From: Alkalihalobacillus sp. FSL W8-0930
GTDB taxonomy: Bacteria; Bacillota; Bacilli; Bacillales; Bacillaceae_D
DNA: 64,000 nt
Assembly (NCBI GenBank): GCA_037965595.1
Contig: CP150183.1
Location: forward strand, 3,720,001-3,784,000
Direction: 5' to 3'
The position numbers and the translations under genes are program-made. The notes beneath the pieces are model-generated. The model was given only the letters and a program-made list of their open reading frames with translations. It ran no database searches and was not told where the DNA came from. Below, piece by piece: positions 46,403 through 54,293 of the stretch (position 1 is its first letter; each line of letters begins with the position of its first letter).

Positions 46403-48037
46403 ATGAAAGCAGCACGCATGGTCTTAGAGTATTTAAAAGAGAATGGTGTAACACACATCTTTGGTATTCCAGCCGGTTCAGTTAACGCGTTTTTTGATGA
46501 ACTATACGACATGAAGGAATTAACACCTGTAGTCACAAAACACGAAGGTGCCGCTACCTATATGGCCGCAGCATACGCTAAGTATTCTGGTCATTTGAGT
46601 GTGGCAATTGGTTGTAGTGGTCCAGGCGGCACGAATTTAGTAACTGGAGCCGCAAATGCCATGCGAGAACACTTGCCTGTCTTATTTATTACTGGTGCTG
46701 TGCCAGTTAGTACGGTCGGCTTAAATGCATCTCAAGAATTAGATGCAGAGCCGATCTTCCGTCCCGTAACAAAGTATAGTGTCACGGTCAACGAATCAGG
46801 AAATGTTCTAAGTGAAATTGCAAAAGCTTGTGAAATCGCTATCTCTGGAGTTCCTGGCCCTGTGCACGTGGCGCTTCCAATTGATGTTCAGCATGGAAGC
46901 GTAGACACTCTAACCGTTCCTGTCCTTCCATCAAGAGAACAACTTGTTCCTGACCTGCAGACGATCAAGCACGTAGCGGACGAGCTCGTATCGCGTGAAA
47001 AAGGAATCGTGTTTGTCGGCCAAGGTGTCAGAGGAGCCGTTGAACAATTAGTCGAACTTGCAGAGTTACTAGATTGGCCGATCATCACGACACCACAGGC
47101 TAAAGGGTACATACCTGATACCCATCCACTTTTAGTTGGAGTGTACGGGTTTGCAGGTCACGAAGCAGCCTCTAACCTTATTGCTGAGGGAGATGCAAAC
47201 GTATTATTGATTGTTGGATCAAGCCTCGGTGAAACAGCAACCAATAACTATAATGTGAAGCTGACTGAAAATCGTTTTACGATTCAATTAGACTTTGACG
47301 AAACCGTTTTTAACCGTAAGTACACAACTGATTTGCCAGTACACGGAGATATTAATCTAAGTCTCGTATTTTTAATAGAAGAATTGCGTAACAGAGGACT
47401 GACACAAACAAGCTATGAGCATAAGCTAGTCGAGGATGAGACAAACCTTGAAGACTACAATACAAAAAACGTCATGCTGAACCTACAAAACCTTCTTCCA
47501 CCATCAACTCGATACACGATTGATATCGGGGAATTTATGGCCTATGTTATCAACCATATGAGCGTGAAAGAGTCTGATACTTTTGGTATAAACGTTCACT
47601 TTGGCGCGATGGGTACTGGTATTGGTTCGGCAATCGGTTCTAAGCTAGCAGAACCCGATCGTCCAGTCGTTTGTGTAACAGGAGATGGCTGCTTCTTTAT
47701 GCATGGTATGGAAATCTTAACGGCAAAAGAATATAACCTCCCTATTCTCTTTGTTGTCATGAACAATGCCCGACTAGGCATGGTTTATCATGGACATGCA
47801 TTGCAGTTCAAGCGAACACATCCTTCATTTGAACAACAGCAAATTGATATTAGCGCAATGGCCGCCGGAATGGGTGTTCCAAGCTTCCGCGTGAACTCAA
47901 TGGATGATCTCAACCAAGCAACAATTGATCATTTAATGAACGGAAATGGTCCTGCTGTACTAGAAGTTGCACTTATTGATCAAAACACCCCTCCAATGGG
48001 AGATCGAGTGAAGTTTTTGTCTTCATTTGGGAAGTAG
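46403..48037 (+). CDS. Thiamine-diphosphate-dependent enzyme (acetolactate synthase/benzoylformate decarboxylase-like)
   Basis: A 544-residue cytoplasmic enzyme of the ThDP superfamily, with the catalytic glutamate in VTKHEGAATYMAAAYA, a central FAD/NAD-like domain (about 190-330) and the ThDP-binding motif GDGCFFMHGMEIL...NNARLG in the C-terminal part. It resembles acetolactate synthase, pyruvate oxidase and benzoylformate decarboxylase proteins; the central domain does not let me pick one. AGGAGACAAGGAG precedes the ATG at 46403. It lies downstream of the c-di-GMP gene, with a terminator just after it. Confidence 0.85.
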   Translation: MKAARMVLEYLKENGVTHIFGIPAGSVNAFFDELYDMKELTPVVTKHEGAATYMAAAYAKYSGHLSVAIGCSGPGGTNLVTGAANAMREHLPVLFITGAVPVSTVGLNASQELDAEPIFRPVTKYSVTVNESGNVLSEIAKACEIAISGVPGPVHVALPIDVQHGSVDTLTVPVLPSREQLVPDLQTIKHVADELVSREKGIVFVGQGVRGAVEQLVELAELLDWPIITTPQAKGYIPDTHPLLVGVYGFAGHEAASNLIAEGDANVLLIVGSSLGETATNNYNVKLTENRFTIQLDFDETVFNRKYTTDLPVHGDINLSLVFLIEELRNRGLTQTSYEHKLVEDETNLEDYNTKNVMLNLQNLLPPSTRYTIDIGEFMAYVINHMSVKESDTFGINVHFGAMGTGIGSAIGSKLAEPDRPVVCVTGDGCFFMHGMEILTAKEYNLPILFVVMNNARLGMVYHGHALQFKRTHPSFEQQQIDISAMAAGMGVPSFRVNSMDDLNQATIDHLMNGNGPAVLEVALIDQNTPPMGDRVKFLSSFGK

Positions 48038-48053: not shown

Positions 48054-48082
48054 GACTGCCGAGTGTTTCGGTAGTCTTTTTC
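48054..48082 (+). terminator. Terminator of the ThDP enzyme gene
   Basis: GACTGCCGA (48054-48062) pairs with TCGGTAGTC (48068-48076; one G-T pair), followed by TTTTTC. Confidence 0.75.
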
Positions 48083-48121
48083 TGTTTGTGGGGAGATTTT
48101 CGGTTCAGGTGAGCAGAAGTT

Positions 48122-48273
48122 CTTGATTTTCTAGCCGAAGAGCTTGGTAAAGAGCTACATGTTCTTAGTTTTATGAGGTCGAGCTTAGTTTTAGTGTCTA
48201 GCTACTTAGTAGAGTATTGGTTCTTCTTGATATTGGGGGTCGTTTCTTGCTTCAGCTCTCTGTGGTGGTCTTC
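48122..48273. repeat. Phased CTTRNTA array, left part
   Basis: Seven copies of a short core (CTTGATT, CTTGGTA, CTTAGTT, CTTAGTT, CTTAGTA, CTTGATA, CTTGCTT) start at 48122, 48143, 48164, 48184, 48205, 48226 and 48246, that is every 20 or 21 bases. The 13-14 bases between cores vary. Because 20- and 21-base steps alternate, no reading frame can follow it. The array is interrupted by the insertion element and continues after it. Confidence 0.85.
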
Positions 48274-48387
48274 TGTCAAGAAAGTGGACACTAAAAAGTA
48301 AGAGTGATTCCTCTCGAAGCCTATCTTACTGCCTCTTACGGAGATAAATGAAATCTTATCTAAAAGTCTGGAGAAACGTTCTTTTGT

Positions 48388-49275
48388 CTAACTAATTGTT
48401 TTTTGCGAGTCATGATTGGTCCTTTGTGCGTAGGTTCTCTCAAATTGGTTTGGGGATTGGTAGTTCAAAGTCGAATGCCTTCTCGTTTCATTGTACCGAC
48501 TGTAAATGTAGTGATGAATGGATTTCATCGCCTCGTTTCTTGTTTGAAATCGAAAACGATAGATGAGTTCTCTTTTAATGGTCGCGTGAAACGATTCAAT
48601 ACACGCATTGTCATAGGGATCGCCTTTTCGGCTCATACTTATAGTGGCTTTCACTTGAGTAAGTGCCTCGATATACTCGTTTGAACAATATTGAGCTCCT
48701 CGATCAGAGTGGTGAATAAGCCCCTTCGGGGGGCGTCTAGTCGCTATCGCACGCTCAAGAGCGTGTAACACAAGGTCTTTTTCCATCGAATTACTCATAT
48801 TTAGGCCCACAATTTTTCGAGAAAACAGGTCCATAATGGATGCGACGTATAACCAGCCCTCTAATGTCCGAACATACGTAATATCTGTCACCCATATGGC
48901 ATTTGGGTACGCAGCTTGAAACACTCTCTTCAGTAAATTGGGATACACATGTAGAGTGTGCGTGGAATCCGTTGTGACGACATATCTCGCTTTAGGCTTT
49001 GCGCTAACCTTCATTTCTTGCATATATCGCGCCACCGTTTTTTGCGAGATCACATAGCCCCATTCGATTAGATCCTGATGGACGCGAGGACTTCCGTACG
49101 TAGCCAAGCTCTCGTGGAACGATTGACTAATCTTCTTTTTTACGTCCGCTTTCCGTTTTTCACTCTCTGTTTTCCCACCGCGTAGTTTGGCTTTCCACTT
49201 GTAGAATCCACTGGTCGAGACTTGAAGGACTGAACACATCTTCACAATGGAATGTTCATCTTGATGAGCATCCAT
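48388..49275 (-). CDS. IS3-family transposase OrfB (integrase core)
   Basis: A 295-residue frame with HTH_21 (about 30-75) and an rve integrase core: D in WVTDITYVRTLEGW, D in HHSDRGAQYCS and E in DNACIESFHATIKRE form the DDE triad. The C-terminal YNETRRHSTLNYQSP block is the usual family end. No ribosome site is needed if it is made by -1 frameshifting from OrfA: its frame is open upstream of the ATG to the A6G heptamer at 49326-49320. Full length and intact. Confidence 0.93.
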   Translation of the reverse strand: MDAHQDEHSIVKMCSVLQVSTSGFYKWKAKLRGGKTESEKRKADVKKKISQSFHESLATYGSPRVHQDLIEWGYVISQKTVARYMQEMKVSAKPKARYVVTTDSTHTLHVYPNLLKRVFQAAYPNAIWVTDITYVRTLEGWLYVASIMDLFSRKIVGLNMSNSMEKDLVLHALERAIATRRPPKGLIHHSDRGAQYCSNEYIEALTQVKATISMSRKGDPYDNACIESFHATIKRELIYRFRFQTRNEAMKSIHHYIYSRYNETRRHSTLNYQSPNQFERTYAQRTNHDSQKTIS

Positions 49276-49286
49276 AAAATGAAATT

Positions 49287-49577
49287 TTATTTGGGCTTTT
49301 GCGTGAAGATGTGCATGGCCTTTTTTAAGATCTCGTTCTCCTCTCGAAGAGAGAGCATTTCCTTTTCATGATGCTTCTTTAACTTCTCCACTTCGGATGG
49401 AGTCAAATAATCGCCTGAATTTGGCTTTTCTTGTTTCTTCTTATAATCTTGAACCCAGCGGTGGATGGAGGAAACATGAACTTCCAATTCATACGCCATG
49501 TCGCTCGCCTTTTTGCCTTCTTCGATGATTAACTTCGCCACATACTCACGATAATCAAGAGAATACTTTTTCGTCAT
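49287..49577 (-). CDS. IS3-family transposase OrfA
   Basis: A 96-residue protein with an N-terminal helix-turn-helix (MTKKYSLDYREYVAKLIIEE to HRWVQDYKKK) and a leucine-zipper-like C-terminus (about 60-90; LREENEILKKAMHI), as is typical for OrfA. Near its end AAAAAAG (minus strand, 49326-49320) is a standard -1 frameshift signal that would produce the OrfAB transposase. OrfA alone normally regulates transposition. Confidence 0.92.
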   Translation of the reverse strand: MTKKYSLDYREYVAKLIIEEGKKASDMAYELEVHVSSIHRWVQDYKKKQEKPNSGDYLTPSEVEKLKKHHEKEMLSLREENEILKKAMHIFTQKPK

Positions 49578-49647
49578 AGGAACACGTCCTTTGTCAGATT
49601 AGATTTAGTGTACAGAGAATCAAATTAACGTGTCCACTTTTTAGACT

Positions 49648-50058
49648 AACCTCAGTGGGCTTAATAGATTTGGTGATTTTCTTGGTAAGAGGCTCTGGCT
49701 CTTGGTTGGGCTAAGTCTCTTCTTAGTATTGAGTACGTGTTCTTGATAAAGCGGTGAACTTCCTTGCTACATGCCCCCTGCTTAGTCGTGACGTTCCTCC
49801 ACCCTCCATTTTGAGCCTGGTTCTTGCTAATGCACCTAACCTTCTTGGTACTTAGACGCGTTTTCTTGTTAACAGAGCTACCGGGCTTGGTATCGACACT
49901 CCCATCTTGGTAAAACATCAATTCTTCTTGGCATTGAGGGTCGTTTCTTAGTTGGCCCCCCCTGTGAGCTTACTAAAGATCGCATTTTTCTTGATAAGAG
50001 GAAGCGATTCTTGCTAAAATCTGCTTCCTCCTTACTAGCTCACTTGTTCTTCTTACTA
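49648..50058. repeat. Phased CTTRNTA array, right part
   Basis: Nineteen recognisable cores start at 49660, 49681, 49701, 49722, 49742, 49763, 49781, 49823, 49844, 49865, 49886, 49906, 49927, 49947, 49969, 49990, 50010, 50031 and 50052. Steps are 20-22 bases, apart from one of 18 and one of 42 (a lost unit). Forms include CTTGGTA, CTTGATA, CTTGCTA, CTTACTA and CTTAGTA, usually preceded by TT. The last core contains the stop codon of the gene that follows on the minus strand. No ORF here is believable. Confidence 0.85.
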
Positions 50059-50598
50059 ACTCAGGTTCATCCCCCGCACAACCTGCGATATCGCTCCCAT
50101 CGTTTGTCTTTTAAAGGAATCTGGCACAGATTGTCCGGTTGGATTTTCGTAGTAATAATAGCTCCCGTTTTCTTCGGGCCAATATCCTAATGTTCGTAAT
50201 GAATTTTCCAATTCGCTAGGTAGTGATGAGGTGTTTGTCTTATTTTTATATAGATCGGTTGGATAGATTTTTACGTCAACATCACCAATCCCCGTCCAGA
50301 CCACAAAAAGATCTTGTTCATCTTGAACAATCCACTGATTTTTGGAATAGAGGGAAATGTGTGTTCCTTCTAGAGCAGAGATCCCATCAAGGTTAATCCC
50401 GTAATTCTGATTGATAAACAGACGAATGTCCTGACCCGAATGGCGTTCTTTTAAAAATTCAGTGAAGGTCTGATCCTGTACGATTTTATCACTTAACTCC
50501 ATTTGATATGCAGCTTGTACCACTTTATGAATATCGGTCGTTTGAATAGGTGGTTCCATTTTCTCTAAGTACTGATCCATCTTTTCTACCTTTTTCAT
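50056..50598 (-). CDS. Hypothetical cytoplasmic protein
   Basis: A 180-residue protein that I do not recognise. It starts MKKVEKMDQYLEKMEPP, is helical in the N-terminal third, and has a tyrosine-rich SYYYYEN segment near the end. No signal peptide or membrane helix is predicted. The ATG at 50598 has GGGGG about 9 nt upstream. It is downstream of murB on the same strand, separated by a terminator, and its stop codon lies in the last unit of the CTTRNTA array. Function unknown. Confidence 0.65.
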   Translation of the reverse strand: MKKVEKMDQYLEKMEPPIQTTDIHKVVQAAYQMELSDKIVQDQTFTEFLKERHSGQDIRLFINQNYGINLDGISALEGTHISLYSKNQWIVQDEQDLFVVWTGIGDVDVKIYPTDLYKNKTNTSSLPSELENSLRTLGYWPEENGSYYYYENPTGQSVPDSFKRQTMGAISQVVRGMNLS

Positions 50599-52289: not shown

Positions 52290-52331
52290 TAACAAAAGAC
52301 TACAAGAATGATTGTACAAAGGGGTTACGTC

Positions 52332-53279
52332 ATGACTACTTTCAGCATTGATCAAGACATGATTTCATCTGAATCCATTCCTGCATTTTCTCTAACTACT
52401 AGTGATAAAGAAGTGACAACAGTCTATTGTAATACGGATATGCAAACAGAGATTATTAAAACATTACAAACTCAACTAACTACACCCATCTTTGATCAGA
52501 AGGATGGCTTATATACTCGTTTAACCGTTCAAGAGAATGTTTCCTTTTATCATAAATGGTTCGGATGTAAATTAACGCTTCACGAACTTCTTGTTCAATT
52601 TGAATTAGCCTCCATAGCAAAAAAGCCGTTACATAAATGCTCGGTTTCTGAGGTACGCCGGGTTCATTATATAAAATATCTACTAAGTGCTCCTAGCGCT
52701 ATGGTCTTTATCGAACCCATTCACGGAGTAGACGTTCAGACAACACAAACGTTTATCGCTATGCTTGAACGAATAAAACAAGACACCATTCCAACATTAA
52801 TTTTTGTTTCGAATATGGAGCATGCTCTCCTTTTAGGGGATATCCCTTATAAACTACAACAAAGTGGCTTAAACAAAATTGAAATTGATGAAGAACCAAA
52901 TGAGTTAGAAACAGAAAACGCACCTAAAACCTCATTTGATCATCTATTCAAAATCCCTGCGAAGGTTGATGACAAGATCATTCTATTTGATCCATTAGAG
53001 ATTGATTACATAGAAAGTCAGGACGGGAAAGGTAAGATTGTGATTAATGATCAATCTTACTTGATGGATCTCACTCTTTCAGAGATTGAGAAGAAGTTAA
53101 ATGTGTACGGATTTTATCGGTGCCACAGATCTTATATTGTGAACCTGCAAAAAGTACGTGAAATCATCACTTGGTCAAAAAATGCGTATTCACTTCGAAT
53201 TGATAACAGCGTTCAATCGACGATTCCGTTATCTCGGACAAAGATCCAAGAGATTCAGGAAAGATTTAGCTTACGGTAG
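52332..53279 (+). CDS. LytTR regulator with a degenerate ABC-ATPase-like N-terminal domain
   Basis: A 315-residue protein. The N-terminal 200 residues resemble an ABC ATPase that has lost its catalytic motifs. LYTRLTVQENVSFYHKWFG parallels LYERLTVYDNLKLFCKLYG of the neighbouring ATPase; Walker A is absent, the signature is CSVSEVRRVHYIKYLL and Walker B reads MVFIEPIHGVD. The C-terminal 100 residues are a LytTR DNA-binding domain (IDYIESQDGKGKI, FYRCHRSYIVNL). The ATG at 52332 follows AAAGGGG. It most likely senses or binds the exporter and activates its transcription. Fusions of this sort occur in other Firmicutes but are little studied. Confidence 0.85.
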   Translation: MTTFSIDQDMISSESIPAFSLTTSDKEVTTVYCNTDMQTEIIKTLQTQLTTPIFDQKDGLYTRLTVQENVSFYHKWFGCKLTLHELLVQFELASIAKKPLHKCSVSEVRRVHYIKYLLSAPSAMVFIEPIHGVDVQTTQTFIAMLERIKQDTIPTLIFVSNMEHALLLGDIPYKLQQSGLNKIEIDEEPNELETENAPKTSFDHLFKIPAKVDDKIILFDPLEIDYIESQDGKGKIVINDQSYLMDLTLSEIEKKLNVYGFYRCHRSYIVNLQKVREIITWSKNAYSLRIDNSVQSTIPLSRTKIQEIQERFSLR

Positions 53280-53444: not shown

Positions 53445-54293
53445 ATGGAAAACGTAATCGAAGTGAACGGATTAAAGAAAACATTTGGCTCACATACAGC
53501 CATTAAAAATGTAACGCTACATGTTAAAAAAGGAGAAATCTTTGGCTTACTAGGACCAAGTGGATCTGGGAAAACAACAACTAATAAAATACTCACAGGT
53601 GAGTTATCACCAACATCTGGTGAGGTAAACGTACTCGGAATGACATCATCTAAATTTGGATCTGCTTCATTTAGATCAAAGATTGGTATCTTATCTGATA
53701 ATAGTTCTTTATATGAACGACTGACTGTTTATGACAATTTAAAGCTTTTTTGTAAATTGTATGGAGTTCCTGTTTCACAGATTGATGTTCTTTTAAAAGA
53801 AGTTAACTTACAGGATGACGGTTCTCGCATCGTTTCTAAATTATCAAAAGGAATGAAGCAACGTGTTCTACTGGCTAAAGCATTGATTCATAAACCAGAG
53901 CTTGTTTTTCTAGATGAACCAACATCTGCACTAGATCCCGGAAACATGACACACATTCATCGTGGATTGCAACGACTAAACGAAGCCGGAACAACAATAT
54001 TCTTAACAACCCATAATATGGAAGAAGCAACTGAGCTATGTGACCGCGTTGCATTCCTTCATGAAGGTGAGCTCCAGGAAGTGGATAGTCCATCTGCACT
54101 TAGATATAAGTACTCTACAGGAGCATTCCATGTGGAAACGCATGATGGCGAACAAATGGTGATTAAAAACAAACCAGAAAATGCAAACCAGATTCAACAG
54201 CTGATCGCAACCAATCAAGTTAAGTCCATGCATTCAGACCACCCAACGCTTGGCCAAATCTTCTTAAAAGTTACAGGAAAGGAGCTTGTCTAA
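53445..54293 (+). CDS. ABC transporter ATP-binding protein
   Basis: A 282-residue ATPase with Walker A GPSGSGKTT (about 36-44), signature LSKGMKQRVLLAKAL, Walker B LVFLDEPTSALD and H-loop TTHNMEEA. The C-terminal 70 residues form the tail typical of drug- or peptide-exporting ATPases. AAGGGAGGGCAACAAA lies upstream of the ATG. Its stop overlaps the start of the permease by one base, so the pair is coupled. Substrate unknown; the control by GntR and LytTR proteins suggests antimicrobial peptide or lantibiotic defence. Confidence 0.92.
   Translation: MENVIEVNGLKKTFGSHTAIKNVTLHVKKGEIFGLLGPSGSGKTTTNKILTGELSPTSGEVNVLGMTSSKFGSASFRSKIGILSDNSSLYERLTVYDNLKLFCKLYGVPVSQIDVLLKEVNLQDDGSRIVSKLSKGMKQRVLLAKALIHKPELVFLDEPTSALDPGNMTHIHRGLQRLNEAGTTIFLTTHNMEEATELCDRVAFLHEGELQEVDSPSALRYKYSTGAFHVETHDGEQMVIKNKPENANQIQQLIATNQVKSMHSDHPTLGQIFLKVTGKELV

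Follow-up and report, generated by a model that had tools for sequence, protein, structure and literature searches.

Among the closest described counterparts of the locus presented here are the REP/BIME repeats, which have the gene of the RAYT (Y1) transposase beside its own type of repeat and serve as insertion targets for IS elements (PMC2817692, PMC1525189). The phased arrays found in the window (by which we mean the whole stretch of 64,000 nucleotides that was analysed), and at other loci of this and related genomes, resemble them in being intergenic repeats, in adjoining, each type of repeat its own, a gene for a putative DNA-cutting enzyme, and in being the target of an IS. A cognate enzyme gene beside its own repeat family is found here as well, with a NERD-domain protein in place of Y1. 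Four differences stand against these likenesses: the array core, CTTRNT, is asymmetric and points in one direction within an array, whereas the REP unit is a palindrome of 20-40 bp; the arrays keep a phase of 20-21 bp while their spacers drift; the recurrent neighbour belongs to the NERD family and not to Y1; and chains of at least five cores on both sides of the NERD gene occur in only 9 of 50 loci. Because the repeats lack palindromic symmetry and their recurrent partner is a NERD protein rather than a Y1 enzyme, we do not file the system as REP-RAYT, even if the NERD-array pair may, by analogy, work like a REP-RAYT pair.

Plasmid iterons and ParR-type centromere arrays consist of short unidirectional sites, about two helix turns apart and many in a row. 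The arrays share this layout with them, but are chromosomal, occupy dozens of loci and have a NERD gene as recurrent neighbour. Their alternation of a constant short piece with changing spacers, beside a nuclease-like gene, also recalls CRISPR; the constant part, however, measures about 6-9 bp (at least 23 bp in CRISPR), the remainder of the 20-21 bp unit drifts between species by point mutation, and no cas domain was found among the 17 proteins scanned around arrays. Intergenic sets of directly repeated heptamers are known as the TAACTGA repeats of Beggiatoaceae, which in the genome studied lie mostly just upstream of start codons and for which translation control has been proposed; the abstract of that work mentions neither a helical phase nor an adjoining partner gene (PMC4679880). 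A search of the open-licence literature, in which sequence strings were queried as short strings, returned no description of such arrays or of NERD proteins in connection with arrays. NERD is named in a figure legend of a CRISPR survey (PMC10910872), a passage on Bacillus methanolicus places a NERD gene at a distance of 456 bp from upp (PMC12802215), and a 2022 paper on SmdA, a distant NERD-like membrane protein, states that the importance of the NERD domain had previously been unstudied in any bacterial protein (PMC9040797). The arrays belong to a large family in Bacillus-like bacteria that is apparently undescribed.

Layout of the array in the window

The array of the window lies between two convergent genes and is interrupted by an insertion sequence, with the following features (steps in bp).

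46403..48037, forward strand: flanking gene, thiamine-pyrophosphate enzyme
48054..48084, forward strand: terminator-like hairpin with T run, read by eye, between the thiamine-enzyme gene and the array
48122..48252, forward strand: left array part, 7 cores, steps 21,21,20,21,21,20 (position-weight chain model)
48262..48265: GTGG target duplication, left copy
48266..49654, reverse strand: IS3-family insertion sequence with rve and HTH_21 domains (ends from four aligned copies; gene finder)
48388-49275, reverse strand: orfB of the IS
about 49287-49577, reverse strand: orfA of the IS
49655..49658: GTGG target duplication, right copy
49660..50058, forward strand: right array part, 19 cores, steps 21,20,21,20,21,18,42,21,21,21,20,21,20,22,21,20,21,21 (position-weight chain model)
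49823..50058, forward strand: 12-core element, steps 21,21,21,20,21,20,22,21,20,21,21
50056..50598, reverse strand: flanking gene, 181 aa, whose stop codon overlaps the array end

Direct listing and the chain model both recover the 7 and 19 cores counted in the first-pass annotation, with their steps of 20-22 bp, the one of 18 and the one of 42. The array is thus real, and the core given there as CTTRNTA is better written CTTRNT: the consensus of the chain-model units is TTCTTGGTAW, in which CTT-R-N-T is nearly invariant, and the last A of CTTRNTA is kept in only about 62% of the units. The cores of the window follow CTTRNT and mostly read TTCTTGGTA. The 181-aa flanking protein has no Pfam family at E 0.001.

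A chance origin of the array was rejected. Genome-wide, 74 triples of CTTRNTA with spacings of 19-22 bp are present, versus 1 for the reversed pattern, and the looser core CTTRNT gives 343 triples versus 34. In the window and the first stretches fetched from its genome, the chain model detects 453 units in 39 arrays, and 1.24 Mb of Markov sequence yields a single two-unit chain that barely reaches the threshold; when read backwards, the same stretches contain one chain of 6 units and one of 11, and this control is hence not empty. The runs thus far exceed the reversed and Markov controls. Neither do the mixed steps of 20 and 21 bp fit a decayed protein gene, as had been argued for coding repeats when the array was first noticed.

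The window also encodes, close to the array (52308-53279), a protein with a C-terminal LytTR domain, whose N-terminal part weakly resembles the neighbouring protein at 53445-54293, an unusual fusion. Known LytTR sites have a geometry similar to that of the array. The protein was rejected as array binder: beyond an A. gibsonii ortholog, just weak matches lie near arrays.

An IS3-family element within the array

When the IS is removed together with one GTGG duplication, a step of 21 bp is obtained across the empty site. Relatives of the IS at E < 1e-60 number five in its own genome, and none was found in four congeners. The copies at 319119, 371389, 2907698 and 3768391 are at least 97% identical and have CTTGGTA-type array pieces on both flanks, and a divergent relative, 68% identical (G000:C1:3387929-3388801, locus L230), lies within a phased array of core TTTTTGMGCA. 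All five IS3-family relatives of this genome hence sit in phased arrays, and these are of two core types, so that what the IS recognises may be the structure of the array or its protein instead of one sequence.

Distribution and genomic context

As the first-pass annotation had proposed, phased runs were searched across the full genome and its relatives, and they are found there. All five genomes examined of Alkalicoccobacillus, the genus of the window, carry phased-array triples, from 50 up to 532 in A. porphyridii (G003), and of 36 other genomes of the same family, 35 carry none and one a single match. The core TTCTTG has a match in 64 of 397 genomes of the order, many of them with one only; some genomes of other families, among them G020, G088 and G119, have 83-163 matches versus 0 in the reversed control, and the arrays fetched from TTCTTG-core genomes have mean steps of 20.0-20.8 bp. 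The narrower pattern TTCTTGNKA occurs in 4 of 398 genomes of the class, one of them outside the order. Among the matches listed, CTTGGTA repeats outside the genus mostly have a uniform period of 19, 21 or 22 bp, often with spacers much alike, and in some short runs the spacers differ. Cyanobacteria and Bacteroidota also have tandem 21-bp repeats with CTTGGTA and near-alike spacers (e.g., L102, L110, L158, L184), not all of them in a clear open frame.

The arrays are intergenic and lie chiefly at the 3' ends of genes or in the spacers of convergent gene pairs. In four genomes, 92 merged arrays (IS genes being counted as neighbours) comprise 36 in convergent, 44 in tandem and 7 in divergent setting, with 5 unclassified, while 355 array-free spacers of at least 120 bp comprise 29, 210 and 116, respectively. 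The arrays are accordingly in excess between convergent genes (36 of 87 classified arrays versus 29 of 355; Fisher, p = 1.7e-12), in line with the setting first noted in the window, and deficient between divergent ones (7 of 87 versus 116 of 355; p = 9.6e-7). On 104 3'-facing sides, the median gap from gene to array is 78.5 bp (less than 30 bp on 19 sides), and a terminator-like hairpin is present on 48, always ahead of the array, and on none of the other 56. Some arrays lie downstream of rRNA and tRNA genes. Of the 25 array loci of this genome, as delimited by our own clustering of CTTRNTA triples, 22 are within 1 Mb of the origin, placed by dnaA (p = 1.4e-4). The suggested clustering by replichore is seen as clustering in the origin half; a strand bias between replichores is visible by eye in this genome but absent in G004, and hence is not claimed. 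In one Alkalicoccobacillus genome, a phased array (G004:C1:2637906-2637952, locus L240) lies about 0.9 kb upstream of dnaA.

Gyrase binds BIMEs in E. coli, and the convergent bias, the arrays following rRNA and tRNA genes, and the concentration around the origin would suit nodes of chromosome architecture or supercoiling, where gyrase, a nucleoid protein or another conserved protein binds the 3'-end arrays and NERD is merely a frequent neighbour. We regard this as improbable, since a general factor has no need of the differing cores that stand beside different NERD genes, and since arrays are far commoner at NERD genes than at other reading frames (see below).

Conservation and helical phase

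Array positions and sequences were compared between the genome of the window (G000) and its closest species here, A. gibsonii (G001). For 26 of 31 array rows of G000 (three loci being split into two rows, and the right flank of the window being rearranged), homologous flanks could be matched in G001, and in 23 cases an array lies between them; several G000 arrays further correspond to sites that carry an array in G002 and G004. No clean insertion footprint was found at two G000 arrays that are absent from G001. In the 15 array pairs that aligned out of 16 submitted, whose aligned copies need not all be true orthologs, 16 of 964 columns at fixed core positions are substituted (1.7%), versus 861 of 2520 spacer columns (34%), a comparison in which core conservation is somewhat favoured because the units were located in G000. 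Over 17 array pairs with 5663 aligned columns, there are 1410 substitutions, but the gaps are limited to 13 of one base and a single one of 20, corresponding to a whole unit. Selection acts on the core and the phase of the arrays.

The mean step is 20.44-20.69 bp in the five species, and arrays of at least ten cores at NERD loci have a mean of 20.53 bp per step (sd 0.25, n = 25 arrays, some sharing one locus). The helical phasing proposed for the window array holds insofar as the step is about two turns; yet at 20.4-20.7 bp it falls slightly short of two turns of B-DNA (21.0), so that the cores would face one side only if the bound DNA had about 10.2-10.4 bp per turn. Taken as two turns, the mean step amounts to 10.2-10.35 bp per turn, below relaxed B-DNA, which would be consistent with DNA that is wrapped or bound in a filament. 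Many dispersed loci of this genome and of A. gibsonii have in common a 12-core element with steps of 21,21,21,20,21,20,(21 or 22),21,20,21,21. The common pattern is 21,21,20,20,21,20,20,21,20,20,21 in G002, (21,21,20)n in A. porphyridii, and an alternation of 20 and 21 in G004. In each of the five species, neighbouring steps of 20-20 and 21-21 are rarer than expected (3 versus 22 for 20-20 in G000), and the 20s and 21s leave smaller mean residuals from a straight line than shuffled steps do. This evenness test is modest for any one pattern, single patterns being seldom significant (mean p of 0.06-0.28 per species) and related by descent, and some arrays with steps uniformly of 20 or uniformly of 21 bp count against evenness.

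The first-pass annotation had favoured two natures for the array, a structured RNA or a set of protein-binding sites. The former is not supported: RNAalifold gave no consensus structure for 31 elements on either strand, spacers pair no better within than between elements (9.09 versus 9.20, 23 non-redundant elements), the folding energies of the arrays are ordinary (z of -0.7 to -1.3), and the window has no Rfam match at gathering scores. The latter, in the form of binding sites under selection, is well supported by the disparity between core and spacer substitution, by the self-correcting steps and by a candidate cognate protein, described below.

Selfish satellite DNA, tolerated and accumulating where it is harmless, with NERD merely helping its copying and the host gaining nothing, would account for the expansions in A. 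porphyridii, where the 532 triples of G003 include arrays of up to 60 consecutive cores, and for the tandem blocks of 62, 124 and 247-298 bp found among the arrays; the rarity of arrays between divergent genes and the IS insertions within them agree with it. Selfish DNA is nevertheless a quite improbable explanation, given how little the conserved core positions are substituted between species and how regularly an array of G000 recurs at the corresponding place in G001.

A NERD-domain protein adjoining the arrays

An all-against-all comparison of the genes at array loci gave six gene groups spanning at least three families. In one of them, the NERD group, 9 of 10 members at these array-chosen loci, from four bacterial families, lie within 400 bp of an array, versus 4/46, 3/15, 0/13, 1/13 and 2/5 in the other five groups and 215/1455 for all genes. 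The NERD protein has about 330 residues, with a NERD domain and two CxxC pairs (zinc ribbon), and all five proteins scanned score 67.5-83.4 bits with the PF08378 (NERD) profile (cut-off 22.1). In 48 proteins drawn from the 50 NERD loci, with a median pairwise identity of 40%, the nuclease-like residues are E47 in 47 (one gap), and D81, E/D94 and K96 in all 48. The C-terminus looks like a helix-turn-helix, a reading made by eye only, since the single-sequence structure model (pLDDT 35) is unusable; a PDB search with the NERD alignment returned 28 matches at E 0.065-0.99, mostly zinc-ribbon ribosomal proteins. A profile search scoring up to five candidates per genome detects the family at E < 1e-20 in 307 of the order's 397 genomes, frequently with several members in one genome.

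Many NERD paralogs with differing motifs, and weak named matches of the NERD part that include the defence proteins MADS6 and PglW, could point to defence against phages or plasmids, with NERD as the effector and the arrays titrating or storing it. Those matches, however, cover the NERD part only and lie far below the cut-off where one exists, the arrays are dispersed at gene ends in positions kept between species, and in viral contigs, where 73 stretches fit a pattern, none was confirmed as a NERD relative. A defence role is very unlikely.

The pairing was then viewed from the side of the protein, at loci chosen by their NERD gene, with a detector that presupposes no motif (four fixed letters of any kind within seven, steps of 19-22 bp). 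We are highly confident that NERD genes are associated with phased arrays. A chain of at least six cores is present at 28 of the first 30 loci, versus none of 30 Markov copies and one of 69 pieces of 4 kb from relatives, and 39 of all 50 loci have at least six phased cores within 600 bp of the gene, at a median distance of 77 bp. In flanks of 700 bp, at least six cores are found at 39/50 NERD genes, 1/50 Markov copies and 0/72 reading frames of similar length from relatives, and at least five at 45/50, 3/50 and 1/72; chains of four are uninformative (50/50, 18/50 and 30/72). The 50 loci include six seeds found via arrays and five further Alkalicoccobacillus loci (one gene being counted twice); without these, at least six cores are found at 28 of 39 and at least five at 34 of 39. 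Twenty of the loci were added by hand-picking, 16 of them lower-scoring matches outside the genus, and only 7 of these 16 have a flank chain of at least six, so that either the pairing loosens towards lower scores or arrays at such loci are shorter. In the loci fetched from four Alkalicoccobacillus genomes, all nine distinct NERD genes (11 entries) are adjacent to an array. Against a cognate relation, 11 of the 50 NERD genes have no array of at least six cores nearby.

The two-sided chains of at least five cores (L349, L354, L358, L364, L374, L382, L384 and L391, with L377 being the same gene as L349) recall an enzyme gene with its repeats on either side, the core being not always the same in both flanks. 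At 28 of 39 loci, the array closest to the NERD gene is on its 5' side, as would be expected if it were the NERD operator and the dispersed arrays regulated other genes. It lies on the 3' side in the other 11, though, and dispersed arrays are seldom found between divergent genes and usually follow gene ends; autoregulation has hardly any chance of being the explanation.

Two NERD genes of the genome of the window bear on its own array.

G000:C1, about 3342866-3343861: own NERD gene with CTTGGTA arrays
3350687 (about 3.351 Mb): second own NERD gene, with a 19-core array of core CtATCgCAT, not CTTGGTA

Cores mostly differ between NERD groups: TTAGACYGAWT is found at L354, L361 and L362, GGACAGTAAA at L363 and L392, GCGTGAAA at L359 and L360, TCTATGAGTC at L364, GCTACAAA at L370 and TGTCCGATA at L373. 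NERD proteins more than 60% identical have the same core in 12 of 12 comparisons (one being the same gene twice), those 50-60% identical in 18% of 33, and those below 50% rarely. Outside close relatives, the similarity of cores follows protein identity neither overall nor in any protein window, and the segment conferring specificity is thus not located. The genome of the window has further arrays with other cores, GAATC.A (L205:6713-6921), CGCGCAC (L213:882-1031), GATTCC (L215:5525-6177) and GTGCGCG (L289:10277-10468); their NERD partners were not located in the fetched loci, which counts against the cognate reading.

The step signature of the 12-core element of the window is identical to that of the NERD-adjacent 12-core array at L215:11115-11350. 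In the same genome, no more than 50 kb separates 5 of 24 other array loci from the NERD gene, versus 0.62 expected (p = 0.0003; p = 0.003 when restricted to the origin half). The corresponding numbers are 4 of 8 in G002 (p = 0.007) and, without significance, 3 of 10 in G001 (p = 0.075) and 1 of 10 in G004 (p = 0.31), the arrays of these species being common by descent. The identical signature and the clustering near the NERD gene link the window array to the NERD-adjacent one, and we read it, with a probability of about 0.6, as one dispersed copy of the array that is cognate to the NERD protein encoded at about 3.343 Mb.

A possible partnership of repeat and enzyme

The pairing suggests a new kind of repeat-and-enzyme partnership, in which the NERD protein probably binds the arrays directly. 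It would recognise the asymmetric core TTCTTGNTA, and adjacent protomers, two helix turns apart, would touch along the DNA; we propose that, owing to such contacts, selection keeps the core and the phase, and not the spacer. We also infer that NERD forms filaments, acts as a nuclease and takes part in the spread of the arrays. The enzyme would also drive repair or recombination at the arrays, leading to their spread and homogenisation, as proposed for RAYT and REP. The conserved nuclease-like residues, together with the expansion in blocks, the one step pattern per species and the excess near NERD genes, suggest such an enzyme-driven spread, to which we would give somewhat less than an even chance. 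Bound arrays, largely beyond gene ends, could then serve as topological or insulating nodes, and a function in DNA topology at gene ends is rather unlikely. The full picture, a widespread two-part system of Bacillales in which each NERD protein has a private phased array, forms a filament with two turns per protomer, copies and homogenises its arrays genome-wide, builds dozens of chromatin-like nodes at gene ends and attracts IS3-family elements independently of the core, is tentative, and we would stop just short of betting on it.

NERD domains are common, and the array beside most of the NERD genes examined offers a direct candidate substrate for each protein, making the question of what these proteins act on testable. 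If the pairing reflects binding, it would give access to new protein-DNA codes and make the arrays, with their cognate enzymes, a class of dispersed repeats new to bacteria; gene ends might in that case also carry a chromatin-like structure of a new kind.
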